Shown: piece after piece, positions 8,227-39,292 of the stretch
How the letters are laid out: the number at the start of each line of letters is the position of its first letter
How positions within the stretch are numbered: the first letter of the stretch is position 1
From: Modestobacter italicus
Lineage (GTDB): Bacteria; Actinomycetota; Actinomycetes; Mycobacteriales; Geodermatophilaceae
Direction of reading: 5' to 3'
Length of the DNA: 64,000 nucleotides
Assembly: GCF_000306785.1 (NCBI RefSeq)
Contig: NC_017955.1
Span: 2,232,001-2,296,000, forward strand
Notes under the pieces: model-generated
Database searches by the model: none
What the model was told of the DNA's origin: nothing
Seen by the model: only the letters and a program-made list of their open reading frames with translations
Position numbers and translations under genes: made by a program

Positions 8227-9255
8227 ATGCACCTCGGCGTCGACAGCTTCGTCTCGGCGGTGACCGATCCCGCGTCGGGTCACGTGGTCGGGCCCGAGGA
8301 GCGGATGGCCCACCTGCTCGAGGAGATCGCCCTCGCCGACGAGGTGGGCCTGTACTCCTTCGGCATCGGCGAGCACCACCGGCCGGAGTACTACGACTCG
8401 GCACCGGCGGTCATCCTGGCCGCCGCGGCCGCCCGCACCTCGCGCATCCGGCTGGGCAGCGCGGTCAACGTGCTCAGCGCCGCCGACCCGGTGCGGGTGT
8501 TCCAGGAGTTCGCCACCCTCGACCTGATCTCCCGCGGCCGGGTCGACCTGGTCGTCGGCCGCGGGTCGTTCACCGAGGCGTTCCCGCTGTTCGGCCTGTC
8601 GCTGGCCGACTACGACTCGCTCTTCTCCGAGAAGCTCGACCTGCTGCTGCAGATCCGGGACTCGGAGGAGGTGACGTGGTCCGGGCGCCACCGCCCCGCG
8701 CTCACCGGCCAGGGCATCTACCCGCGGCCGCTGCAGGACCCGCTGCCGATCTGGGTGGGCGTCGGCGGGACGCCGGAGTCCTTCGTCCGCGCCGGCCTGC
8801 TCGGGCTGCCGCTGATGGTCGCCATCATCGGTGGGGAGCCGCGCCAGTTCGGCCCGCTGATCGACCTGTACCGCCGGGCCGGCGCGCAGGCGGGGCACGC
8901 CCCGGAGACGCTCCAGGTCGGCCTGCACGTGTTCGGCTTCGTCGCGGAGAGCACCCAGGCGGCCGCGGACACCATCTACCCCGGCTGGCACGAGATGTTC
9001 ACCAAGGTCTCCCGCGAGCGCGGCTTCTCCCCGCCGTCCCGCGCGCAGTTCGACGCGACGAGCGGCCCGGACGGCGCGTTCTTCATGGGCGACCCGGACA
9101 CCGTGGCCGAGAAGCTGGTGCGGATCTCGGGGCAGCTCGGCGGGGTGGACCGGATCTCGCTGCAGATGACCAACCCGCGGCTGGCGCACGCCGACCTGCT
9201 GCGCGGCATCGAGCTGCTGGGCACCGAGGTCGTGCCCCGGGTTGCGGCCGGCTGA
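8227..9255 (+). CDS. LLM-class flavin-dependent oxidoreductase
   Basis: 342 residues with the luciferase-like TIM-barrel pattern: GLYSFGIGEHHRPEYYDSAP near the N-terminus, ARTSRIRLGSAVNVLSAADP, LDLISRGRVDLVVGRGSF, and the late segment GDPDTVAEKLVRISGQLGGV. The GEHH motif points to the FMN/FADH2-type bacterial-luciferase-like group more than to classical F420 enzymes, though cofactor choice cannot be read safely. Probably a monooxygenase or reductase of unknown substrate. A GGGAGG Shine-Dalgarno lies 5-10 nt before the ATG. A short inverted repeat GACGG-AA-CCGTC (8182-8193) lies in the 90-bp leader between the TetR gene and this gene. Confidence 0.86.
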   Translation: MHLGVDSFVSAVTDPASGHVVGPEERMAHLLEEIALADEVGLYSFGIGEHHRPEYYDSAPAVILAAAAARTSRIRLGSAVNVLSAADPVRVFQEFATLDLISRGRVDLVVGRGSFTEAFPLFGLSLADYDSLFSEKLDLLLQIRDSEEVTWSGRHRPALTGQGIYPRPLQDPLPIWVGVGGTPESFVRAGLLGLPLMVAIIGGEPRQFGPLIDLYRRAGAQAGHAPETLQVGLHVFGFVAESTQAAADTIYPGWHEMFTKVSRERGFSPPSRAQFDATSGPDGAFFMGDPDTVAEKLVRISGQLGGVDRISLQMTNPRLAHADLLRGIELLGTEVVPRVAAG

Positions 9256-9299
9256 CCCCGGCCGACCAGGTGCGCGCGGTCGACAGGGACCATGGGGCG

Positions 9300-10397
9300 G
9301 TGAGCCCGGAGGAAGGACAGCCGCTGCCGGCCGGGCAGCTGTCCGCCCCGGACGAGGGCCCGGTGGTCGAGCCCGCCGGACGGCGGCGGCCCATGGGGCT
9401 GCTGCTGCGCGGGCTGCTGGTCCTGGTGGCCGTGGTGCTGGTCGTCGTCTTCCGGCACCGGATCGCCGAGTGGTGGGACGGGCTGGTCGGGGTCGCCTGG
9501 AAGTGGGTGCTCCTGGCGGCGGTCGTGCAGCTGCTGTCGATGCAGTGCCTGGTGGAGCAGCAGCGCGGGCTGCTGCGCGCCGGCGGTGGGTCGGCGCCGC
9601 TGGGCAGCGCCACGAGCACGATCTACGCGGGCAACACGATCTCGGCGACGGTGCCGGTGGCCGGTGCCGCGGCCAGCGCCGCGTACACCTACCGCCGGCT
9701 GCACGCGCTGGGCAACAGCACCGGGCTGGTGGGCTGGGCGCTGGCGGTCTCCGGGATCGCGGCGACCGCGTCGCTGGCGGTCGTGCTCGCCGTCGGCTCC
9801 GCGGTGACCGGGTCGCTGGTCGGGGCGCTCGGCGCGTTCCTCGCCACGGTGGCCGGGGTCGTCCCGGTCGCCGGGCTGGTGCTGGTGCTCCGGCACGCGC
9901 GGACCCGCGCGGTGGTCGTGCGCTGGGTCAGCCGGGCCGCCGCGGTGCTCGGCCGGTGGGTGCCGGCGCTGCGCAGCGACCGGGTCGGCCTGCGGGTCGA
10001 CGAGCTGCTCAGCTCGCTCGGCTCGTTCCGGCTGAGCCCGCTCGCCGGGAGCGCCGCCGGCTTCTACGCGCTCGCCAACTGGGTGCTGGACGTCGCCACG
10101 CTCGCGCTCGCCCTGGTCGCCGTCGGCGCGCCGGTGCCCTGGCAGGGGCTGCTGCTCGCCTGGGCCGCCGGCGCCCTCGCCTCCTCGGCCCGGCTCACGC
10201 CGGGTGGGATCGGCGTGGTGGAGACGGCGCTCGCCTCCGCGCTGGTCGCCGCCGGGCTGCCCGCGAGCCAGGCCGTGCCGGCGGTGCTGGTCTACCGGCT
10301 GGTCAGCCTCTGGCTGCTCGTCGGCATCGGCGCGCTCTTCCTGGTCGCCACCCCCGCCGGCCGGCGCCGCACCCCGGACGACGCCGCGAGGGCCTAG
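9300..10397 (+). CDS. UPF0104/LPG-synthase-transmembrane-type membrane protein
   Basis: 365 residues. A basic, proline-rich cytoplasmic N-terminus (about 40 residues) is followed by at least seven hydrophobic helices, starting at MGLLLRGLLVLVAVVLVVVF. The pattern matches the lysylphosphatidylglycerol-synthase TM region family (UPF0104): QCLVEQQRGLLRAG, NTISATVPVAGAAASAAYTY, and the conserved RLTPGGIGVVETAL near the C-terminus. Family members without an aminoacyltransferase domain are thought to be lipid flippases. No MprF-type synthetase domain is present. The GTG start lies 45 bp after the LLM gene and has only weak GGGGCG upstream; a GTG at 9270 is an alternative. A second family member is at 36413-37510. 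Confidence 0.82.
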   Translation: MSPEEGQPLPAGQLSAPDEGPVVEPAGRRRPMGLLLRGLLVLVAVVLVVVFRHRIAEWWDGLVGVAWKWVLLAAVVQLLSMQCLVEQQRGLLRAGGGSAPLGSATSTIYAGNTISATVPVAGAAASAAYTYRRLHALGNSTGLVGWALAVSGIAATASLAVVLAVGSAVTGSLVGALGAFLATVAGVVPVAGLVLVLRHARTRAVVVRWVSRAAAVLGRWVPALRSDRVGLRVDELLSSLGSFRLSPLAGSAAGFYALANWVLDVATLALALVAVGAPVPWQGLLLAWAAGALASSARLTPGGIGVVETALASALVAAGLPASQAVPAVLVYRLVSLWLLVGIGALFLVATPAGRRRTPDDAARA

Positions 10398-10471
10398 GAG
10401 TCGTCGAGTAACTGCAGGTCGGTGCCGCGATGGCCCCCGGAACTGTCGTACCCCTCCCGTAGCTTGAGCGT

Positions 10472-11362
10472 GTGTTCGAGACCGGCGGGTTCGGGGTGGC
10501 GGTGACGGTGGCGCCTGCCCGCCCGGTAGACCCCGACCGCTGGGGCCCGGCGCCGGCGGGGGTGAGCCGGCGCCGCTCGCGGTTGTCGGAGGTGCTCGAC
10601 CCGAGCGGCTTCGACGATGCCGGGCTGGCGCGGGAGCTGGCGGTGGTGGGGGACCTGCGGTCGCAGCTGGCGGCCTACGAGGCGGCGTTGGTCTCCGACT
10701 TCGCCCGCCGCCGCCCGGCCACCCAGGACCGGGATGCGGACCAGCCGGGGCACCGGGTGGAGGGCTGGACGCCGGGGATGGTGCCCGTGCAGGTGTCGGA
10801 GTTCTTCGCCGATGAGCTGGCCGTGGTGGCCGGGCTGTCCCCGCAGGCGGCGACGAAGCTGGTGGAGCGGTCGCTGGCGTTGGTGGGGGAGCTGCCGGCG
10901 ACGTGGGCGGCGTTGGCCGATGGGTTGATCGACCCGCCGCGGGCGAACGCGATCGTCAAGGCCCTCGGTGGGCAGTCGACCGCTGCCGGTGGCCGGGTGG
11001 ACCCGGCCGTGGTCGGTGAGGTGGAGGCGCAGGCGCTGCAGTGGGCGCTGGCGGGGGAGACGCCGGTGCGGTTGGCGGAGCGGACGGCGGCGGCGTTGAT
11101 CGCGGTGGACGCCGCGGCGGCGGACCGGCGGCGGCGCAAGGCCGAGCAGTGCATGGACGTGCAGGCCAGGGCAACCGCGGACGGGATGGGTCAGCTGGTG
11201 GCGGACCTGCCGATGCCGGTGGCGGCGGCGTGCCGGGACGCGGTGGACGGCTACGCGCGGATGGCCAAGGCCGACGGGGACACCCGGCCGATCGGTCAGC
11301 TGCGGGCGCAGATCATGGCCGACCTGATCCTCCGCCCCTGGGACACGAGCCGGGAGCGGTGA
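10472..11362 (+). CDS. DUF222 (13E12-type) protein, N-terminal part, frameshifted
   Basis: 296 residues covering the DUF222 domain of the 13E12 repeat family. Recognisable segments are ELAVVGDLRSQLAAYEAALV, LVERSLALVGELPATWAALA and the domain end LRAQIMADLILRPWDTSRER. In intact family members the last segment continues straight into (E)PVTAHLTVIAPLP and an HNH nuclease domain. Here the frame ends in TGA at 11360-11362, while the continuation resumes one frame over. Restoring one C near 11357 (GAGCGG to GAGCCGG) would rebuild a normal junction. The GTG start may be used by a leaderless transcript, because TAGCTT, a possible -10, ends 6 nt upstream. Read this as half of a broken or split gene. 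Confidence 0.75.
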   Translation: MFETGGFGVAVTVAPARPVDPDRWGPAPAGVSRRRSRLSEVLDPSGFDDAGLARELAVVGDLRSQLAAYEAALVSDFARRRPATQDRDADQPGHRVEGWTPGMVPVQVSEFFADELAVVAGLSPQAATKLVERSLALVGELPATWAALADGLIDPPRANAIVKALGGQSTAAGGRVDPAVVGEVEAQALQWALAGETPVRLAERTAAALIAVDAAAADRRRRKAEQCMDVQARATADGMGQLVADLPMPVAAACRDAVDGYARMAKADGDTRPIGQLRAQIMADLILRPWDTSRER

Positions 11363-12099
11363 CGCGCACCTGCAGGGTCATCGCCCCGCTGCCGGGGCTG
11401 AGCACCCGGTCGGCCGGTGAGGGCACCCGGCCGACCGGCGGCGACCTGCGACCGTTCACGCCCCTGACCGACTCCGACACCGCGACGGTGGACGGCGCGC
11501 CGATCACCGCCGGGCAGCTGCGGGAGCTGCTGGAACAGCTCGACGCCCTCTGCCCGGGCGGGTTGCAGGCACCGACCGGCGGCAGCCTGGGCATCTCGCT
11601 GACCGACCCGGAGAGCGGGGCGCTGCGGGCGACGGTGACCCGGGGTGAGCTGGAGGCGCTGGTCCGCCGCGGCTGCCCGCAGCACGGCACCGGGACCAGC
11701 TGTGGCTGCGCGGTGCTGGACCGGCCGCCGCCGGTGGACCGGTACCGGCCGACGCCGGCGCAGCAGCGGTTCGTCAAGGCCCGGGACCGCACCTGCCGGC
11801 ACCCCGGCTGCCGCCGTCCGGCACGGTGGACCGAGGCCGACCACGTCCACCCGCACGCCGAGGGTGGGCAGACCGCCTGCGAGAACCTGTGCTCGCTGTG
11901 CCGCCGGCACCACCGGCTGAAGACCCACGCACCGGGCTGGCGGTTCACCATGACCGACGACGGGGTCCTGTCCGTCACCACTCCCTCCGGGGTCACCCGC
12001 ACCACGAGACCACCGGGCCTCCGGCTGCCCGGCGAACTCGTCCCGGTCCCGGTCGGCGGCCCACCCCCGGACCCGGCGGACGACCCACCACCGTTCTGA
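11359..12099 (+). CDS. HNH endonuclease domain, C-terminal part of the split DUF222 gene
   Basis: 246 residues from a GTG that overlaps the upstream TGA (GTGA). It holds the family's linker (VIAPLPGLSTRS, then DGAPITAGQLRELLEQLDAL) and the C-terminal HNH domain: TCRHPGC, EADHVHPHAEGG, NLCSLCRRHHRLKT, ending GVTRTTRPPGLRLP. The zinc-ribbon cysteines and the HNH core (DH, N, H) are intact, so the nuclease domain itself is not decayed. Either the gene is a recent single-base deletion pseudogene, or the GTGA overlap allows reinitiation and two polypeptides. A tandem repeat array starts 6 bp after the stop. Confidence 0.7.
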   Translation: MTRTCRVIAPLPGLSTRSAGEGTRPTGGDLRPFTPLTDSDTATVDGAPITAGQLRELLEQLDALCPGGLQAPTGGSLGISLTDPESGALRATVTRGELEALVRRGCPQHGTGTSCGCAVLDRPPPVDRYRPTPAQQRFVKARDRTCRHPGCRRPARWTEADHVHPHAEGGQTACENLCSLCRRHHRLKTHAPGWRFTMTDDGVLSVTTPSGVTRTTRPPGLRLPGELVPVPVGGPPPDPADDPPPF

Positions 12100-31042: not shown

Positions 31043-31059
31043 GCAGGCTCCGGCTCAGC
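31038..31059. terminator. Short bidirectional hairpin between convergent genes
   Basis: GCTGAGC (31038-31044) and GCTCAGC (31053-31059) with an 8-nt loop. Both facing stop codons (TGA 31040-31042, TCA 31055-31057) are part of the arms. Stem is short, so efficiency is uncertain. Confidence 0.4.
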
Positions 31060-32437
31060 GGGCGCCGTCCACCGGCAGCCGGACCCGCAGCACGGTCTCG
31101 CCCGGCCGGAGCTCGATGCCGATGTCACCGCGGTGCCGGTCGACGATCCGGCGGGAGATGTCCAGGCCCAGGCCGGTGCCCTCGCCGACGCCCTTGGTGG
31201 TGAAGAACGGGTCGAAGGCGTGCCGCGCGGTCTCCGGGGACATCCCGGCCCCGGTGTCCGCGATCTCCACGACCACGTCGCCGCCGTCCACCCGGCTCGA
31301 GACCCGCAGCGTGCCGGAGCCGCCCAGGGCGTGGAGCGCGTTGTCGACGAGGTTGGTCCACACCTGGTTCAGCTCGGCGGCCAGCGCCGGGATGCGGGGC
31401 ACCGCAGCGCTGTGCTCCCGGACGACGGTGACGCCGGCGGGGATGCGGTGGGCGAGCACCACCAGCGTGCTCTCCAGCCCCTCGGCCACGTCGGTCTGCT
31501 GCATCGACGCCCGGTCCAGCTGCGAGTAGGACCGGGCCGCGGCGACCAGGTCGGAGATCCGGCGGGTGGACTCCTTCACCTCCGCCAGCAACGCGGTCGC
31601 GGCGAGGGTGCTCACCACCCACTCCAGGCCGGGCTCGAGCCGGGCGCTGCCCAGCACCTCGGCGGCGCGCTCGCACCAGAGCTCGTCGGCACCCGCAGCG
31701 GCCAGAGCGGGCGCCAGCACCCAGTCCCGCCGCACGCCGTGGCCGGTCAGCCAGTCCGACAGGGCGTCCTCGCGGTCGGCAGCGCTGAGCGGGTCGCCGG
31801 GCGGGACCGGGGCCAGCTCCTGCCGCAACGAGTCGAGCGCGGCGAACTGCGCGGCGGTCACCGGCGCGGCGGCCAGCGACCGGAGGGAGTCCAGCATCTG
31901 CTCGTGCGCCTCGCCGAGGGCGTCGACGGCCCGGGACGCGGCGGCGGCCGGGTTGTTGAGCTCGTGGGCGAGCCCGGCCGCCAGCGTGCCCAACGCCGCG
32001 AGCGCCTCGCGCTGCCGGGCCATCGACTCGTAGTTGCGAGCCGACCGGGACACCCCCTCGACCAGGTGGAGGCCCAGCGGGAAACGGTCGGCCCAGACCC
32101 GGTGCAGGTCCTCGGCCGGCACCCGCAGGACGCGCGCGCCGGTCGCGGCCCGGCCGGTCGCGAGGTAGACGCCGTGCTCGTCCCACGCCCGGAACCCGCC
32201 CGCCCAGCGGCCCGGCACGTCCATGACCCCGAGCCGGGTCTCCTCGTGCCCGACGTGCCGCAGCAGGTCGATGCGGCCGTCGAGGAGCACCCACCAGTGC
32301 TCGGCGGGCCGGTTCTCGGCGAAGACGACGTCACCGGCCCCGGCGTGCACCTCGGTGCCCGCCGCGACCAGCGCGGCCAGCTGGTCCTCGCCGGTGCCGG
32401 CGAAGAGCCCGAGCGGGCGGAGCTCGTCGAGGTCCAT
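31055..32437 (-). CDS. Sensor histidine kinase with N-terminal cyclic-nucleotide-binding-like domain
   Basis: 460 residues, no membrane segments, so probably cytoplasmic. Residues about 5-120 form a Crp-like cNMP-binding domain (LRPLGLFAGTGEDQLAALVA, AGDVVFAENRPAEHWWVLLD). A dimerisation/phosphoacceptor region follows with LGTLAAGLAHELNNPAAAAS, where the His in HELNNP is the likely phosphosite. The C-terminal HATPase has N-box NQVWTNLVDNALHALGG, G1 DTGAGMSPE, F-box FDPFFTTKG and G2 GEGTGLGLDI. No response-regulator gene lies nearby, so it is an orphan. The ATG at 32437 is chosen because the conserved domain starts directly after it. Confidence 0.87.
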   Translation of the reverse strand: MDLDELRPLGLFAGTGEDQLAALVAAGTEVHAGAGDVVFAENRPAEHWWVLLDGRIDLLRHVGHEETRLGVMDVPGRWAGGFRAWDEHGVYLATGRAATGARVLRVPAEDLHRVWADRFPLGLHLVEGVSRSARNYESMARQREALAALGTLAAGLAHELNNPAAAASRAVDALGEAHEQMLDSLRSLAAAPVTAAQFAALDSLRQELAPVPPGDPLSAADREDALSDWLTGHGVRRDWVLAPALAAAGADELWCERAAEVLGSARLEPGLEWVVSTLAATALLAEVKESTRRISDLVAAARSYSQLDRASMQQTDVAEGLESTLVVLAHRIPAGVTVVREHSAAVPRIPALAAELNQVWTNLVDNALHALGGSGTLRVSSRVDGGDVVVEIADTGAGMSPETARHAFDPFFTTKGVGEGTGLGLDISRRIVDRHRGDIGIELRPGETVLRVRLPVDGAR

Positions 32438-32563
32438 CACGTCGCCCCGGGACGGTGGACGGACATGGCTCCTCCTCCGCGGACGACGGTGCGCGCATCG
32501 AAGCACGCCGCACGCGGTCAGCGGGGGCTCCGGTGCACCCCGTCCGGGGTGGTGCCGTGCCGC

Positions 32564-33059: not shown

Positions 33060-33075
33060 CCCCGGCGGTCAGCTG
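33053..33075. terminator. Bidirectional hairpin between convergent genes
   Basis: GCTGACC (33055-33061) and GGTCAGC (33067-33073), extended by a G-T wobble and a C-G pair, loop of 5 nt. Both facing stops (TGA 33057-33059, TCA 33069-33071) lie in the arms. Confidence 0.5.
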
Positions 33076-33983
33076 CCGTCCCACCAGCGGGCCGCGGCGG
33101 CCCGCGGGGTCAGGCCCTCGACCTCCACGGCCCGGTTCAGGCCGCTGAGGTCGGCGGTGGTCAGCCGGGCGCTCACCGCGTCCAGGGCGTCGGCCAGCCG
33201 GTCTCCCCACCGCTCGAGCGCGGCGGTGCGCACCAGCGGGACGACGTTCTCGTGCGGCTGCAGCGCCCGGTCGTCGGCGAGCAGCACCACCGGCGCCCCG
33301 CCGCCGCCCAGCCGGGCGTCCGTGGTCTCCAGCAGCCCGACCTGGATCGACCCGGCGACCAGGGCCTCGACCGTGGCGGCCCGGGACGGCATGTTCACGA
33401 CGCTGCCGAACCGGAGGCCGTAGACCTCTCGCAGACCGGGCAGGCAGAGCGGACGCTCCGGACACTCCGGCGGACCGCCGAAGGCCAGCCCGGGGGCCAG
33501 CGGCTCGAGCTCGGACAGCCGGCTCACGCCGTGCTCGGTGGCGAACGCCCGGCTGACCGCGAAGCCGTTCTGGTCCTCGGCCGCTGCCGCGGCGAGCACG
33601 GTGACGCCGCGCGGTGCGAGCAGCGCGCTGAGCGTGGCGTGCAGCTGCTCGGGGGTGCTGGTGCCGGCCGCGCCGCTGGGGTCGACGAAGCGCACCGCGG
33701 TGCCCAGGTAGTCGACGACCACGTCGACGACCCCCTGCTCCAGCGCCGGCTCGACGACCTCACGGGTGCCGGCGCCGGGGTGCAGCGACACCGGCAGGCC
33801 CGCCTGCCGGGCGGACTCCGCGTAGACCGCGGCGAGGATCTCGTTCTCGCTGAAGTCGTAGGAGGCGAACCGGACCGTGTCCCCGGGGCGCTCCCCGTCG
33901 TCCGCGGAGCCGGAGCACGCGCTCGCTGCGAGGAGCAGCAGCACGACGAGGAGGACGACGGACGGCGCGCGGCGAGGTGGCAC
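33069..33983 (-). CDS. Glycine betaine/choline-type ABC transporter substrate-binding lipoprotein (OpuAC family)
   Basis: 304 residues. The N-terminus VPPRRAPSVVLLVVLLLLAA with SACSG forms a lipoprotein signal peptide, so the mature protein would be tethered outside. The body follows OpuAC: VRFASYDFSENEILAAVYAE, SARQAGLPVSLHPGAGTREV, VVDVVVDYLGTAVRFVDPSG, and a C-terminal WWDGS. Substrates of the family are betaine, choline, carnitine or ectoine. No ABC permease or ATPase gene is nearby, so it is an orphan or works with a transporter encoded elsewhere. The GTG start has AGGGAAGG upstream. The adjacent upstream gene is divergent. Confidence 0.83.
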   Translation of the reverse strand: MPPRRAPSVVLLVVLLLLAASACSGSADDGERPGDTVRFASYDFSENEILAAVYAESARQAGLPVSLHPGAGTREVVEPALEQGVVDVVVDYLGTAVRFVDPSGAAGTSTPEQLHATLSALLAPRGVTVLAAAAAEDQNGFAVSRAFATEHGVSRLSELEPLAPGLAFGGPPECPERPLCLPGLREVYGLRFGSVVNMPSRAATVEALVAGSIQVGLLETTDARLGGGGAPVVLLADDRALQPHENVVPLVRTAALERWGDRLADALDAVSARLTTADLSGLNRAVEVEGLTPRAAAARWWDGS

Positions 33984-34119
33984 AGTGCCCGCCTTCCCTG
34001 CCGGAGCGTCACCACCGTCGGCGTGGGGCCGCGGCGGCGCGGCACGGGGCCACGCTAGCGGCACCTGGGGCGCACAGGGGGATGTCCGTCGCCGCCCGGG
34101 AGGTGGAGCATCAGCCGAC

Positions 34120-35817
34120 GTGACCTCGCTGCCCCAGGCAGTGCCGACCGCGGTGTCTCCCACGGGGCAGGCCCCGCCGGCGATCCACCGCGTCCGGCGC
34201 CGGCGTCGTCCCTCGGGTGAACCGCCGCCGCTGCCCCGGCACCTCAACGCCTCGGGCAAGTGGTGGCTGGCCATGTCCGGGCTGGTCGTCGTCGCCTGGG
34301 TGGTCGTCTGGGCGACCGACAGCGTCGGCCGGTTCGACGTGGCCGACACCCGGGTCCTGCAGGCCTTCGAGCGGATCCGCTCGCCGGCGCTGACCCGGGT
34401 GGCCGAGGTCGCCGGCGTGCTGGCCTCGGCCACCGCGATCTACGTCCTGTGGCTGGGCAACCTCGCGGTGCTGATCGCCGTCCGGCGGTGGCGGCACCTG
34501 TTCGTGGTGATCGCCGTCGGGATCATCGTGGTGCAGGTGGGTGCCGAGATGGCCGGCACCCTGCAGCGCCCGCGGCCCTTCGAGGTCGAGATCATCGGTC
34601 CGTGGACGGGCTTCTCGATGCCGTCGCTGCCGGTCACCGTGCTGGCCACGTTGCTGCTCAACGCCGTCTACTCCCTGGTCCCGGCCGGCCGGTACCGCAC
34701 CATCGGCAAGTGGGTCGTCTGCGTGGTGCTGGCGGTCACCGCCCTGTCCCGCCTCTACCTGGCCCAGGACCACCCGACGGACATCGCCGCCGGGGTCATC
34801 CTCGGGGTGGCCGTGCCGCTGGCGGCCTTCCGGCTGCTCACCCCCAACGACGTCTACCCGGTGCGCTACCGGCGCGGTCGCCCGGCGCACCTCGACGTCA
34901 CCGGACCCCGCGGTGAGGCGATCGTCCGCGCCCTGGAGGACCAGCTCGGGCTCCTGGCCACCGCCGTGGAGCCGTTCAACCTGTCCGGTTCCGGCGGCTC
35001 CACACCGCTGCGGATCACCGTCAAGGCCGCCGGGGAGGGCGAGAGCTGCGTGTTCGGGAAGCTGTACGCGGCGACCCACGTGCACTCCGACCGCTGGTAC
35101 AAGCTGGGTCGCACGCTGCTCTACGGCCGGTTGGAGGACGAGCAGCCGTTCCACAGCGTGCGTCGGCTCGTGCAGTACGAGGACTACGTGATGCACCTGT
35201 TCACCGATGCCGGGCTGCCCACCCCGCGCCCGCTGGGCATCGTGGAGATCACCCCGGAGCGGGAGTACCTGCTGGTCGCCGAGTTCATGGCCGGCGCCCA
35301 GGAGGTCGGCGACGCCGACGTGGACGACGCGATCATCGACCAGGGGCTCGCCCTCGTCCGCCGGATGTGGGAGATCGGCGTCGCCCACCGGGACATCAAG
35401 CCGGCGAACCTGCTGGTCCGCGACGGCAGGCTCGTGGTCATCGACACCGCCTTCGCGGAGGTCCGCCCCAGCCCGTGGCGGCAGGCGGTCGACCTGGCCA
35501 ACATGATGCTGGTCCTGGGGCTGCGCACCGACGCCGAGCGGGTCTACCGGCGGGCCCGCCTGCAGTTCACCGACGAGGAGCTCGCCGAGGCGTTCGCGGC
35601 CACCCGCGGGCTCACCATGCCCTCCCAGCTCCGCCGGATGCTGCGCCAGCAGGGGCGCGACCTGCACACCGCGTTCCTGGCGCTGCTGCCGTACCAGCTG
35701 CCCTCGGTGCGCATCCAGCGCTGGAGCTGGCGGCGGGTCGTGCTCACCCTCGCGACCCTGCTCGCGGCCCTGGTCTGCGCCGGTGTGACCTCCGACCTGC
35801 TCCGCTCGCCGCTGTGA
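34120..35817 (+). CDS. PAP2-like membrane domain fused to a protein/lipid kinase-like domain
   Basis: 565 residues. Residues about 45-240 hold several membrane helices in PAP2 arrangement, but the three catalytic motifs are degenerate: motif 1 reads E(x6)RP instead of K(x6)RP at about 148, motif 2 PSLP instead of PSGH at 168, and motif 3 SRLYLAQDHPTD at 210 has Asp where the nucleophilic His is expected. Residues about 290-520 are a kinase-like fold with Lys314 (VFGKLYA), catalytic loop HRDIKPANLLV (Asp425, Asn430) and metal Asp442 in VIDTAFAE. A final membrane helix closes the protein. It starts a five-gene operon; the next GTG overlaps its stop. Substrate unknown; a lipid-linked sugar is plausible. 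Confidence 0.82.
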   Translation: MTSLPQAVPTAVSPTGQAPPAIHRVRRRRRPSGEPPPLPRHLNASGKWWLAMSGLVVVAWVVVWATDSVGRFDVADTRVLQAFERIRSPALTRVAEVAGVLASATAIYVLWLGNLAVLIAVRRWRHLFVVIAVGIIVVQVGAEMAGTLQRPRPFEVEIIGPWTGFSMPSLPVTVLATLLLNAVYSLVPAGRYRTIGKWVVCVVLAVTALSRLYLAQDHPTDIAAGVILGVAVPLAAFRLLTPNDVYPVRYRRGRPAHLDVTGPRGEAIVRALEDQLGLLATAVEPFNLSGSGGSTPLRITVKAAGEGESCVFGKLYAATHVHSDRWYKLGRTLLYGRLEDEQPFHSVRRLVQYEDYVMHLFTDAGLPTPRPLGIVEITPEREYLLVAEFMAGAQEVGDADVDDAIIDQGLALVRRMWEIGVAHRDIKPANLLVRDGRLVVIDTAFAEVRPSPWRQAVDLANMMLVLGLRTDAERVYRRARLQFTDEELAEAFAATRGLTMPSQLRRMLRQQGRDLHTAFLALLPYQLPSVRIQRWSWRRVVLTLATLLAALVCAGVTSDLLRSPL

Positions 35818-36416
35818 AGCGGCCCGGGACCGCCGCCGCGCTCGCCCTGCTGGCGGCCGGCTGCCTGACCGGGTGCGGCAGCGACTCGGCGGACCCGGCG
35901 GCCGCGATCACCAGCCCACCGGCCTGCCCGGTCGGCGACGGTGGTGCGGGCAACGGCGTCATCCTGATGGCCCAGTCGGTGCCGACCGCGGCCTGGGCGC
36001 CGTGCCTCTCGCCGCTGCCCTCCGGCTGGGAGTTCCGGCACCTGGAGGTGCGCAACGGCATCTCCCGGTTCTGGCTGGACTCCGACCGGGACGGCACCCG
36101 GGCCATCGAGGTCCGGCTCGAGGAGTCCTGCGACACCGCCGGCGCCACCGAGATCGCCAGCGACCGGGAGTACATGCACCGGCTGGAGCGGGTCCGCCAG
36201 GTCAGCCCGACCTACTCGGGAGAGCGGCACTACGTGTTCCGCGGCGGCTGCCTCAGCATCGTCTTCCGGCTGGACGGGGACAGCCCCGGGGAGGCGCTGG
36301 CGCTCGCCTCCCAGGCCGTCGGGGTGGTCAGCCGGGAGGACCTCCAGACCCAGGTGCACGCCGACAGCGGCGGACGGATCGACCTCGACCCCAGCAGAGG
36401 GGACGGACAGCCATGA
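35814..36416 (+). CDS. Hypothetical lipoprotein in the PAP2-kinase operon
   Basis: 200 residues. MKRPGTAAALALLAAGCLTG then CGSDSAD is a lipoprotein signal with an LTGC lipobox, so the protein should be anchored on the outer face of the membrane. The mature part has four cysteines (SPPACPVG, APCLSPL, EESCDTAG, FRGGCLSIV), which could form two disulfides. No family recognised. The GTG overlaps the preceding stop (GTGA) and the stop overlaps the next ATG (ATGA), so it is firmly part of the operon and probably works with the membrane proteins around it. Confidence 0.8.
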   Translation: MKRPGTAAALALLAAGCLTGCGSDSADPAAAITSPPACPVGDGGAGNGVILMAQSVPTAAWAPCLSPLPSGWEFRHLEVRNGISRFWLDSDRDGTRAIEVRLEESCDTAGATEIASDREYMHRLERVRQVSPTYSGERHYVFRGGCLSIVFRLDGDSPGEALALASQAVGVVSREDLQTQVHADSGGRIDLDPSRGDGQP

Positions 36417-37510
36417 CCACACTCGAGCAGGCGAGCCCCCCGGCGCGGCCCCGCCGACCGGCCTGGCGGCGCTGGCTCGCCCCGGCGTTCTCCCTCGTGC
36501 TGGTCGCGGCGATGGTCTTCTGGTTCCTCCCGCAGTTCACCAGCCTCAGCGACGTGTGGGCCTCGGTGCAGGACATGACCGCCCTCCAGATCGGCCTGCT
36601 GCTCCTGGCGACGGTGTGGAACCTGGCCACCTACCAGTTCGTGATGGTCATCACCACGCCGGGGATGACCCTGCGGCAGGCCACGGTCTCGACCGAGACG
36701 ACCACCGCGGTGGCGAACACGCTGGTCGGGGGTGCGGCCGTGGCGATGGGGCTCACCTACGCGATGAACACCTCGTGGGGCTTCTCGCGCAGCCGGACGT
36801 CGGTGTCGCTGCTGACCTCGGGCCTGTGGAACAACTTCGCCAAGCTGGGCCTGCCGGTGGTGGCGCTGGCGCTGGTGGCCTTCACCACGCCGCCGACGCC
36901 CGGCCGGGTGCTGGCCGGGCTGCTCGGGGTCACCGGCCTCGTCGCGGCGGTGGTCGGGCTGTGGCTGGTGCTGCGCAGCCGGGCGAGCGCGGCCCGGGTG
37001 GGCGTGGCGCTGGCCCGCTGGGTCTCGGCGCTGCTGCGGCTGGTGCACCGGCCGCCGGTGCACGGCTGGGACCTGGCGCTGACCAAGTTCCGCGACCGGA
37101 CCGTGCTGCTGCTGCACGCCCGCTGGCACTGGCTGACCCTGGCCACGGTCGTCAGCCACCTGTCGCTGTTCCTGGTGCTGCTGCTGGCGCTGCGGTTCTG
37201 CGGGGTCGGCGCCGACCAGGTCGCCTGGACCGAGGCCCTGGCGGTGTTCGCCTTCGCGCGGCTGCTCACCGCCGTCCCGTTCACGCCCGGTGGTCTCGGG
37301 GTGATCGAGGTGGCGATGATCGGCGGGCTGGCCGCCGCCGGTGGGGACCGCCCGGCCGTCGCCGCCGGGGTGCTGGTCTTCCGGGTGCTGACCTACGTCC
37401 TCCCCATCCCGTTCGGGGTGCTCACCTACGTCTTCTGGCAGCGCAACAAGTCGTGGCGGCGCGCGCCCGGCACCGCGCCGCGCACCGACCTGGTCCCCGA
37501 GCAGGCATGA
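36413..37510 (+). CDS. UPF0104/LPG-synthase-transmembrane-type putative flippase
   Basis: 365 residues with about eight membrane helices (first: WLAPAFSLVLVAAMVFWFLP). Family features: TETTTAVANTLVGGAAVAMG, SGLWNNFAKLGLPVVALALV and the conserved late AVPFTPGGLGVIEVAMIGGL. Members related to the MprF flippase half are believed to move lipids across the membrane. No synthetase domain is attached. A paralogue lies at 9300-10397, sharing the same TPGGxGVxE signature. Start overlaps the lipoprotein gene and stop overlaps the first PAP2 gene. Confidence 0.85.
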   Translation: MTTLEQASPPARPRRPAWRRWLAPAFSLVLVAAMVFWFLPQFTSLSDVWASVQDMTALQIGLLLLATVWNLATYQFVMVITTPGMTLRQATVSTETTTAVANTLVGGAAVAMGLTYAMNTSWGFSRSRTSVSLLTSGLWNNFAKLGLPVVALALVAFTTPPTPGRVLAGLLGVTGLVAAVVGLWLVLRSRASAARVGVALARWVSALLRLVHRPPVHGWDLALTKFRDRTVLLLHARWHWLTLATVVSHLSLFLVLLLALRFCGVGADQVAWTEALAVFAFARLLTAVPFTPGGLGVIEVAMIGGLAAAGGDRPAVAAGVLVFRVLTYVLPIPFGVLTYVFWQRNKSWRRAPGTAPRTDLVPEQA

Positions 37511-38133
37511 CGACCACCGCGCGGACCGGCCGGGTCGCCGCGGTCGTCCGCCGGCCGCGGGACGTGCTGCTGCTCGTCGGCGGCTCGGCGCTGCTGGTGC
37601 TGGCCTCCCTGCCGGTGCTCCCGGGCACGGTCAGCGCCGCCGAGACGGCGGTGTTCCGGGCGCTGAACGCGACGACGGTCCTGCCGTTCGTGCTCGTCTG
37701 GCCGGTGATGCAGCTGGGCAACGTCCTCGTCGTGCCCTGCGCCGCCGCGGTGGCGGCGGCGTTCCGCCGCTGGCGGCTGGCGGCCGGGCTGCTGCTGGCC
37801 GGGGCCGGCGTGTACCTGCTGGCCAAGGTGGTGAAGGGAGAGGTGCCGCGCGGCCGGCCCGACGGTCTGCTCACCGACGTCGTCATCCGCGGGACCGCGG
37901 CGCTGGGCCGCGGCTACGTCTCCGGGCACGCCGCCGTGGTCACCAGCCTGCTCGTCGTCGCCTGGCCCTGGCTGGGCCGCCCGGCCCGGATCGGCTGCAC
38001 CGTGCTGGTCGTCGCGGTCTGCCTGGCGCGCGTGCACGTCGGCGCGCACCTGCCGCTGGACGTCGTCGGCGGCGCTGCCCTGGGGGTCGCGGTCGCCGGC
38101 GCGGTCCGGCTGCTGCTCGGGCACCCGCGCTGA
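37507..38133 (+). CDS. PAP2-family membrane phosphatase (first of two)
   Basis: 208 residues, about six membrane helices. The PAP2 active-site motifs are all present: KGEVPRGRP (K-x6-RP), YVSGHAAV (SGH) and ARVHVGAHLPLD (R-x5-H-x3-D). This predicts a lipid phosphatase, for example for phosphatidic acid, undecaprenyl pyrophosphate or another polyprenyl phosphate, with the active site facing outside. Overlaps on both sides (ATGA; TGATG) place it in the operon. Confidence 0.88.
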   Translation: MTTTARTGRVAAVVRRPRDVLLLVGGSALLVLASLPVLPGTVSAAETAVFRALNATTVLPFVLVWPVMQLGNVLVVPCAAAVAAAFRRWRLAAGLLLAGAGVYLLAKVVKGEVPRGRPDGLLTDVVIRGTAALGRGYVSGHAAVVTSLLVVAWPWLGRPARIGCTVLVVAVCLARVHVGAHLPLDVVGGAALGVAVAGAVRLLLGHPR

Positions 38134-38831
38134 TGCTGGTCGACACCCGGCGGGCCCTGGTGGTCAGCGGTGCGCTGCTGGCCGGCGCCGTCCTGGTCAC
38201 CGTCCTGGTGGTCTGGCCGGTCACCTCACCGGTCGTGCAGGCCGTGGACGACGCGGTGTGGCGGGGGGCGGTCGCGGTGGAGAACCGCCCGACCACCGTG
38301 GTCGCGGTCGGCATGTCCTGGTTGGGCAGCGTCTGGGTCAACTGGCCGGTGCGGATCGCCGTGCTGGTCCTGCTGGCCTGGCGGCGGCACTGGCTCCGGT
38401 TGACGGCGTTCGCCCTGGCGGTGGTCAGCAGCGAGGCGCTCATCGGCCCGGTGAAGGCGTGGGTCGACCGTCCCCGGCCGCCGGACGGCCTCATCGCGAC
38501 CTCGGGAGCCGCGTTCCCGTCGGGGCACGCGATCGCCGGTGCGGTGACCGCCGTCGGGGTGGTGCTCGTGGTGGCCGCGCCGGGGCCGATGCGCTGGCGC
38601 TGGGAGGTGCGCGCGGTGCTGTTCGCCGTGGTGATGGCGCTGTCCCGGGTGTACCTGCGGGCGCACTGGCTCACCGACACCCTGGCCGGCGGCCTGCTCG
38701 GCGCCGGTCTCGCCCTCGGCTGGCCGGCGCTGCTGATCCCTTTCCGGCACGGCACCGAGGGCGGCCCGCCCGTCGCCCGGGGCAGCGCTCGCCGGACCCG
38801 GCGCCCGCGCGCCCGCGGACGCCCGGGCTGA
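38133..38831 (+). CDS. PAP2-family membrane phosphatase (second of two)
   Basis: 232 residues. Motifs are complete: VKAWVDRPRP (K-x6-RP), FPSGHAIAG (PSGH) and SRVYLRAHWLTD (SR-x5-H-x3-D). The C-terminus is strongly basic (ARRTRRPRARGRPG). Its sequence is only distantly like the preceding PAP2 protein, so the pair probably has different substrates or steps. The ATG shares one base with the preceding stop (TGATG). Last gene of the operon; a hairpin follows. Confidence 0.88.
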   Translation: MLVDTRRALVVSGALLAGAVLVTVLVVWPVTSPVVQAVDDAVWRGAVAVENRPTTVVAVGMSWLGSVWVNWPVRIAVLVLLAWRRHWLRLTAFALAVVSSEALIGPVKAWVDRPRPPDGLIATSGAAFPSGHAIAGAVTAVGVVLVVAAPGPMRWRWEVRAVLFAVVMALSRVYLRAHWLTDTLAGGLLGAGLALGWPALLIPFRHGTEGGPPVARGSARRTRRPRARGRPG

Positions 38832-38832
38832 G

Positions 38833-38851
38833 CCGGTCGGGACCCGACCGG
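38833..38851. terminator. Bidirectional terminator after the PAP2 operon
   Basis: CCGGTCGGG (38833-38841), A, CCCGACCGG (38843-38851): perfect arms that fold to an 8-bp stem with a GAC loop. It lies exactly between the stop codons of the PAP2 operon and the convergent anti-sigma gene. Confidence 0.6.
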
Positions 38852-39292
38852 TCAGGCGAGGGTCAGGCAGGCCCAGACGTGCTTGCGCCGGCCGACCACG
38901 GCCCAGCCGTGCCGGGCGGAGAGCCGGGCGATGAGGTGCAGGCCCAGCCCGCCGAGGGAGGGGTCGCGGTCGACGGCCGGGACGGGCGGCTGGTCGGGCC
39001 GGGCGTCGCTGACGTCGATCAGCCAGCCGGTCGCCGTCCCGGTCACCGTGACCCGGACCGGGGCGCCGCTGTGCCGGACGCCGTTGGACGCCAGCTCCTC
39101 GAAGGCCAGCAGCAGCCGGTCGACGTCGTCCTGGTCGGCTCCCTCGGGCAGCGCCCCACCGGCGAGGTCGGCCCGCAGCCGCACCCGGGCAGCGGTGAGC
39201 TCCGCCGGGCGGGAGATCTCCCACTGCCACGTCGTCCTGACCGGCCCGCGGATCTCGGGGAGGGGGTCCTGCGCCCAGCTGTCGGTGCTCAT
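38852..39292 (-). CDS. ATP-binding anti-sigma-factor-type protein (HATPase_c_2)
   Basis: 146 residues of the RsbW/SpoIIAB-like GHKL fold. N-box is FEELASNGVRHSGAPVRVTV, G1 is IDVSDARPDQPP and G2 GGLGLHLIARLSARHGWAVV. These small kinases, abundant in actinobacteria, bind sigma factors or phosphorylate STAS antagonists. No sigma factor is next to it; the nearest STAS-like gene is at 53118-53459, too far to call a pair. Monocistronic by position. Confidence 0.86.
   Translation of the reverse strand: MSTDSWAQDPLPEIRGPVRTTWQWEISRPAELTAARVRLRADLAGGALPEGADQDDVDRLLLAFEELASNGVRHSGAPVRVTVTGTATGWLIDVSDARPDQPPVPAVDRDPSLGGLGLHLIARLSARHGWAVVGRRKHVWACLTLA

Follow-up and report, generated by a model that had tools for sequence, protein, structure and literature searches.

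What does a kinase do when it is fused to a membrane domain of the PAP2 phosphatase family and is encoded together with a flippase-like protein and two further PAP2 proteins? This question is raised by a locus of Modestobacter italicus located in a stretch of 64,000 nucleotides (positions 2,232,001 to 2,296,000 of contig NC_017955.1, assembly GCF_000306785.1; hereafter the window). The first two genes of the unit are here named kin, which encodes the fused kinase, and lip, which encodes a lipoprotein-like protein. The initial annotation interpreted the five genes as a cycle in which a lipid-linked molecule is phosphorylated, flipped and dephosphorylated. We tentatively favour reading kin as a transmembrane sensor kinase and the lipid-handling proteins encoded with it as most likely under its control. 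The gene set suggests that bacteria may have an undescribed means of detecting or processing envelope lipids that carry phosphate. The features on which the argument is based are the following.

34120-35817, plus strand: kin; basic proline-rich tail, pseudo-PAP2 membrane domain, kinase (RIO/Bud32-like by Z) and C-terminal helix
34198-34239, plus strand: conserved tail motif of kin, RRRRPSGEPPPLPR, residues 27-40
34240-34839, plus strand: pseudo-PAP2 membrane domain of kin, about residues 41-240; Arg152, Pro153, Arg211 and Asp221 retained
34903-35685, plus strand: kinase domain of kin, about residues 262-522; Lys314, HRDIKPAN (423-430) and Asp442
35728-35805, plus strand: C-terminal helix of kin, residues 537-562; a helix in the AlphaFold2 (AF2) model, taken as transmembrane and leading outside
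35814-36416, plus strand: lip, lipoprotein-like putative partner domain of kin; lipobox-like LTGC, four conserved Cys
36413-37510, plus strand: gene 3, UPF0104/LPG_synthase_TM flippase-like membrane protein (PF03706)
37507-38133, plus strand: gene 4, PAP2 phosphatase; motifs KGEVPRGRP, VSGH and ARVHVGAHLPLD
38133-38831, plus strand: gene 5, PAP2 phosphatase; motifs KAWVDRPRP, PSGH and SRVYLRAHWLTD

In PAP2 enzymes, the phosphate is bound by arginines of the active site, and catalysis is the task of the histidines. The PAP2 model of Pfam (PF01569) matches residues 126-240 of the kin protein with 36.4 bits (cut-off 27.2), and it matches 47 of 49 kin relatives at E <= 0.01. The membrane domain lacks the catalytic histidines of motifs C2 (PSGH) and C3 (SRx5H) at their usual places, which are taken by Pro171 and Asp217, the latter followed by a His at position 218. 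A search with the kin protein scored 7996 relatives at E <= 1e-10; residues were examined in the 120 listed, all of which share 74% identity or more with the protein of the window (closest named relative: Modestobacter excelsi, 93%), and in a more diverse alignment of 49 rows. A His at position 171 or 217 was found in none of the 49 aligned relatives and in none of the 120 close homologues; these positions are mostly Pro and Asp, respectively. Arg152 is present in 49/49 and Arg211 in 46/49 of the kin relatives. Thus, the PAP2-like membrane domain of the initial annotation stands as a family assignment, with both catalytic histidines missing from their usual places, and judged by its residues the PAP2 half of kin looks catalytically dead. 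This suggests that some proteins annotated as “phosphatase PAP2 family protein” may be kinases carrying a dead phosphatase domain.

The kinase half, by the same kind of evidence, does not look dead: Lys314, His423, Arg424, Asp425, Lys427, Pro428, Asn430 and Asp442 are invariant in 49/49 and 120/120 rows. The kinase matches of Pfam lie at residues ~347-450. Among kinase families, Kdo/WaaP (PF06293), the sugar kinases of the lipid A core, is alone in exceeding its Pfam cut-off with the window protein, at 22.3 bits against 21.3, i.e., one bit over; RIO1 (16.1 versus 22) and, despite the HRDIKPAN sequence, the Hanks-type Ser/Thr family Pkinase (18.9 versus 31.7) score below theirs, and the Bud32 model far below (27.1 versus 125). 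The AF2 model of kin has a mean predicted local distance difference test score (pLDDT) of 81.1. When this model was compared with solved structures and ranked by Z, RIO1/RIOK3 entries scored 14.4-16.6, PRPK/Bud32 entries 12.9-15.3 and ordinary protein kinases at most 13.3; the best RIO match (16.6) spans 225 residues with a root-mean-square deviation of 4.0, and the PRPK match (15.3) spans 202. Kdo/WaaP chains are absent among the structure matches listed, in Z or in E-value order, which excludes nothing. A kinase fold with HRDIKPAN fused to the membrane domain of gene 1 is borne out by Pfam, alignments, invariant catalytic residues and the AF2 model. RIO and Bud32 (PRPK) kinases are soluble ribosome or KEOPS kinases; the kin kinase differs from them in being fused to a membrane domain, in its HRDxKPxN loop and in scoring far under the Bud32 model.

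The N-terminal tail of kin is also conserved. Positions 28-34 and 36-39 are kept in 118-119 of the 120 close relatives, and nearly all of the 49 diverse rows retain a GxxPPLP core (Gly33 in 46, Pro36 in 46, Pro37 in 46, Leu38 in 49 and Pro39 in 48 rows). Residues 1-43 have a pLDDT below 50 in the AF2 model; the tail may be a docking or regulatory site.

The genomic surroundings of kin were analysed in the best 80 of 190 kin relatives (the named loci). These are the closest loci, so that distant arrangements are under-sampled; 44 were treated as Geodermatophilaceae and 36 as others, and each count below omits loci with insufficient flank. Loci L135 (titled as a Frankiales metagenome-assembled genome) and L141 (titled Bacillus sp., unverified) were placed in the Geodermatophilaceae because of their 73-80% identity. 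The counts are of related loci, not of independent events. A lip gene or domain is present within 900 nt downstream of kin in all 78 testable loci (44/44 Geodermatophilaceae, 34/34 others; L173 and L187 were left out because their flanks are too short), and of the 79 named loci with a placeable lip, 59 have its start, under a nearest-start rule, in a 4-base overlap with the kin stop. In 14 of the 78 loci (L184, L189, L191, L193-L197, L199, L200, L203, L204, L206 and L208), and also in the truncated L187, lip is in one frame with kin. The lip domain of these fused loci starts after the last kin helix (in L189 the remainder of lip is in another frame), and because the frame continues from the helix into the lip domain, we read the C-terminal helix of kin as leading outward. 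On a kin tree with 47 of the 80 loci, where L173 was scored as split though its lip is not visible, the fused and split states need at least 3 changes. Coupling was also seen at the level of genomes: of 396 genomes of the phylum, 26 contain kin (E <= 1e-30) and 24 contain lip (E <= 1e-6), all 24 among those 26, for which a random draw that ignores relatedness gives a probability of ~2e-36. The two kin genomes without lip are G474 and G651, in which the contig breaks off within kin or directly behind it. On these arrangements, lip is the probable partner domain of kin.

In the window, lip is a separate gene, and its product is lipoprotein-like, in keeping with the initial annotation: it has a lipobox-like LTGC, and Cys38, 64, 106 and 146 are present in 77, 80, 80 and 79 of 80 rows, respectively. 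Its AF2 model has a pLDDT of 89.5. No Pfam family was matched by the window protein at E <= 0.1, and Pfam scans of 49 lip family members gave stray weak matches in at most 4. LpqN/PsbP/Mog1-like proteins count among the known systems nearest to the unit.

The other genes of the unit were assigned correctly as well. Gene 3 matches PF03706 with 58 bits (cut-off 33.4); it stays below the NCBIfam models MprF (50.2 versus 600, a model of the whole bifunctional protein) and TIGR00374 (39.8 versus 43.2). It thus shares the flippase domain of the MprF/LPG_synthase_TM flippases, without the synthetase domain. Genes 4 and 5 match PAP2 with 51.7 and 53.7 bits (cut-off 27.2) and contain motifs C1, C2 and C3; among 63 related PAP2 matches, 45 fit all three motif patterns of a strict scan and 18 miss one or two. 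A UPF0104 protein is encoded within 5 kb of kin in 59 of 64 testable loci, 56 times as a separate gene and three times as part of a fusion protein: it is present in 42/42 Geodermatophilaceae loci and in 17/22 others, three of which (L184, L204 and L209) have it in fusions. A PAP2 gene is found within the same distance in 26/42 Geodermatophilaceae and 15/22 other loci. The parts present in Geodermatophilaceae loci keep one order; in the other loci UPF0104 lies upstream, downstream or convergent, in both orientations, and across kin loci assigned by their titles to two actinobacterial classes the partners recur in changed order and orientation. The search for conserved gene order that the initial annotation had proposed as a check shows, for lip and UPF0104, neighbours conserved beyond chance. 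The window contains a second UPF0104 (LPG_synthase_TM) gene far from kin, at 8676-10397 on the plus strand (match 9417-10331), which adjoins a luciferase-like monooxygenase gene (8227-9255).

Several lineages join these parts in single proteins. In L184, L191, L204, L208 and L209, a neighbour of ~800 residues combines a kin-like membrane and kinase region with UPF0104 (in L208 it ends at the contig end); PF03706 was confirmed in the three fusions scanned (L184, L191 and L209). Homology of this family to kin extends across both the membrane region and the kinase region, with an hhalign probability of 99.5. Among its 120 listed relatives, the Asp of the HRD motif is found in 0 of the 119 with a letter at that position and the ATP-binding lysine in 120/120, which indicates that their kinase-like domains are pseudokinases. 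In a thinned UPF0104 tree, the 29 kin-adjacent UPF0104 proteins used (matches above 300 bits) are on one side of a branch and 8 fusion copies on the other, with a Shimodaira-Hasegawa-like approximate likelihood ratio test (SH-aLRT) value of 96; the second UPF0104 of the window, a long branch, was left out of the count. The genomic link between kin and the fusion family is weak: both occur in 7 of the 396 genomes (G418, G422, G432, G445, G504, G687 and G719), against single totals of 26 and 49, and the genome of the window gave no fusion-family match at E <= 1e-30. A diverged branch of kin, with ~42-46% identity and an active-looking kinase, comprises 10 loci (L076, L088, L093 and L095-L101), and 9 of these (all but L099; in L093 ~6 kb away) have a frame with PAP2 and a kinase loop. 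The fusions of L101 and L095, the two that were scanned, contain, in one protein, PAP2 (62.7 and 68.6 bits), LPG_synthase_TM (44.9 and 41.9 bits) and weak kinase matches; the large protein of L101 is encoded at 9470-11890, with similar frames in L076, L088, L093, L095-L098 and L100. Hence, the three domain types of the window operon are joined in nature.

According to the initial annotation, the unit begins at 34120. This start needs correction: a divergent gene on its left, whose position is conserved in related loci, also belongs to it.

33069-33983, minus strand: OpuAC/ProX-type substrate-binding lipoprotein; GTG start (assigned here), lipobox-like LAASAC
33984-34119: gap of 136 bp between the divergent binding-protein gene and kin; from its coordinates, a presumed shared promoter region

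The encoded protein matches PF04069 with 139.1 bits (cut-off 21.2; three such proteins were scanned), and its best solved relative is ProX (1sw1, E 5.2e-18). Clustering of open frames in 40 loci (36 non-Geodermatophilaceae, three Geodermatophilaceae and the window) placed an OpuAC gene just upstream of kin in 18. By position, 56 of the 71 testable loci have an OpuAC gene no more than 2 kb upstream of kin. It is present in 41/41 Geodermatophilaceae loci, always divergent, and in 15/30 others, co-directional in 8 and divergent in 7. We considered whether it is part of an osmolyte transporter and rejected this, since tblastn across the 80 named loci, with permease and ATPase queries taken from two transporter operons in the same genome, found no permease or ATPase gene adjacent; the one permease match lies ~7 kb from kin in L175, a locus without OpuAC, and ATPase matches lie ~5-7 kb off in L186, L201 and L210.

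The ligand positions were compared with eight ProX residues, which we take to be Lys13, Tyr63, Thr66, Asp109, Tyr111, Arg149, Tyr190 and Tyr214; the four tyrosines presumably form the betaine cage of Archaeoglobus fulgidus ProX. In 61 OpuAC rows, Tyr63 is kept in 59 (2 gaps), Thr66 in 45 (Ser in 13), Asp109 in 54 and Arg149 in 61. Lys13 is replaced by Tyr or Phe (2 gaps), Tyr111 by Asn in 61, Tyr190 by Glu (45 rows) or Phe (16 rows), and Tyr214 by Glu in 61 (the HMMER pairing gives His244 instead). With three of these four tyrosines replaced, betaine is an unlikely ligand. The Asn at the Tyr111 position is not special to the kin-adjacent set, as by eye it is also found in a transporter protein of the same genome. 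The tree gave no clear sign that kin-adjacent OpuAC proteins form their own clade: it required two changes, the same as shuffles, and has long branches. Elsewhere in the genome, at G000:C1:733290-734135 (L229:4291-5136), an OpuAC protein has Pfam positions 187-256 before 2-184 and is apparently circularly permuted; its gene adjoins permease and ATPase frames resembling a quaternary-amine ATP-binding cassette operon.

How might these parts work together? In the sensor-kinase reading that we favour, the kinase would be cytoplasmic and lip outside, and the dead PAP2 domain would bind a phosphate-bearing lipid in the outer leaflet; the obvious candidates are undecaprenyl phosphate and comparable carrier or glycolipid phosphates. 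The lip domain and the binding protein would determine how the system responds to a ligand outside, and the kinase would phosphorylate a protein partner, thereby tuning lipid movement by UPF0104 and dephosphorylation by the PAP2 proteins. The joining of UPF0104 to a degenerate kinase-like domain in natural fusions fits control of a flippase by a kinase/pseudokinase pair. A further-reaching version, about which we are doubtful, holds that kin represents a new class of transmembrane kinase, with the dead PAP2 domain as receptor for an outer-leaflet lipid phosphate and the RIO/Bud32-like kinase controlling flippase and phosphatases. The pseudo-enzyme, the outside domain and the orphan binding protein would then read carrier status and directly set kinase activity, and other lineages would have merged the same parts into PAP2-kinase-flippase proteins.

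A number of observations weigh against a sensor kinase. The topology is one that we infer. His218, one residue past the lost C3 His, is present in 35/49 and 120/120 rows, so that it is above all the missing C2 His, together with the displaced C3 His, that makes the PAP2 domain look dead. The 49 kin rows show weak likeness to several families at E <= 0.01 (Pkinase 49, RIO1 42, APH 38, Kdo 33). The structure prediction proposed with the initial annotation, of the kinase against WaaP, RIO and APH folds, gave an answer that depends on the ranking: RIO/Bud32 lead by Z, and the Foldseek E-value order has ordinary protein kinases first, with the first RIO-bearing chain at rank 9. Given these likenesses and this order, a protein kinase and a small-molecule kinase are indistinguishable for kin. 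OpuAC is missing in 15/30 non-Geodermatophilaceae loci, and in the tree the OpuAC proteins encoded beside kin are not set apart from two transporter paralogues. The 10 loci of the diverged branch yielded no match to lip or OpuAC, and their companions are only PAP2 and, in 5/10, UPF0104; the fusions beside this branch keep the HRD Asp and have lost the Lys and mostly the Asn. Finally, the system is patchy even within its genus.

In the cycle of the initial annotation, the kinase would phosphorylate a lipid-linked molecule, which on the present evidence could be held by the pseudo-PAP2 domain; the molecule would then be flipped by UPF0104 and lose a phosphate outside to the two PAP2 enzymes. This cycle is possible, if on the unlikely side, and we keep it as the main rival. 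In its favour, UPF0104 and motif-bearing PAP2 genes are frequent near kin, single proteins with PAP2, kinase-like and UPF0104 parts exist, a lipid might be brought to the kinase by the membrane domain, and the Kdo/WaaP match, which recurs in 33 of the 49 relatives, would suit a kinase of this kind. The fold and the exported partner count against it: the nearest solved folds by Z are RIO and Bud32, although a WaaP-type lipid-sugar kinase is kept as a rival assignment, and coupling to an exported domain and a binding protein would be needless for a metabolic kinase. In addition, the kinase-like domains of both kinds of fusion are degenerate, and 16/42 Geodermatophilaceae and 7/22 other loci have no PAP2 gene near kin.

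It is improbable, in our estimate, that the OpuAC protein is the true sensor of a nutrient or osmolyte signal, with kin as relay and the lipid genes as part of the response. Actinobacteria have a precedent in GlnH-GlnX-PknG (PMC6069109, PMC9769921), a signalling chain made up of a binding lipoprotein, a membrane protein and, as its kinase, a Ser/Thr protein kinase. The unit resembles it in having a binding lipoprotein, an orphan beside kin in every testable Geodermatophilaceae locus, with a membrane part and a kinase, the ligand presumably outside and the kinase inside. It differs in that a PAP2-type membrane domain is fused to a kinase whose fold is RIO/Bud32-like by Z, the binding protein is of the OpuAC type and the partners are UPF0104 and PAP2. 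We draw the likeness as an analogy. Outside the Geodermatophilaceae, OpuAC is absent from half of the testable loci whereas lip is not, and the replaced cage tyrosines make betaine unlikely. It seems to us very improbable that the clustering has no function and that an unrelated kinase happens to adjoin ordinary genes for the recycling of undecaprenyl phosphate. PAP2 and UPF0104 proteins are common and the neighbours in a single genome mean little, but the same partners recur in changed order and orientation, kin and lip occur together without exception save at contig ends, and the domains are found fused.

Within the family, kin is present in 57/112 genomes (E <= 1e-30), some with the diverged branch only, and within the class in 12/296 (E <= 1e-10), 7 of which match the kinase part alone. 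So patchy a distribution favours an accessory trait over a housekeeping role. At least 3 kin matches each were found in G432, G441, G445, G504, G514 and G554, several of these with more than one lip match.

Two open questions are how bacteria sense the supply of phosphate-bearing lipid carriers across the membrane and which role UPF0104 proteins have apart from MprF. The module offers a kinase with what looks like a phosphatase turned binding domain, always coupled to lip at testable loci of the main branch and genetically tied to UPF0104; since it occurs in soil actinobacteria, including named culture-collection strains, both questions are testable genetically and biochemically. A partial parallel exists in mycobacteria, where MviN/MurJ has a pseudokinase tail and the active partner is PknB: like the UPF0104-pseudokinase fusions, it combines a lipid flippase and a pseudokinase in Actinobacteria, with unrelated flippase families. 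This gene set was not recognised among the hits listed by searches of the open-licence PMC library, and a term search of the main text of a pseudokinase review (PMC12599244) gave no PAP2, flippase, lysylphosphatidylglycerol, substrate-binding or Bud32.

The right end of the unit is marked by one further feature.

38826-38857: terminator-like hairpin, common to the operon and the convergent gene 38852-39292

The junctions of the five plus-strand genes read GTGA, ATGA, ATGA and TGATG. The hairpin has a folding energy of -22.9 kcal/mol (z -2.89; 1 of 200 shuffles was equally good), its core stem is 38833-38851, and both convergent stop codons are inside the fold. Coordinates, junction letters and folding energy thus agree with five overlapping genes closed by a terminal hairpin, as initially annotated. 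The convergent gene (38852-39292, minus strand), with its stop codon within the shared hairpin, encodes an HATPase_c_2 protein with a histidine-kinase-like ATPase domain. Slightly beyond the binding-protein gene, on the other side of the unit, the product of a minus-strand gene (31055-32506) combines a domain that binds cyclic nucleotides with a histidine-kinase ATPase domain.

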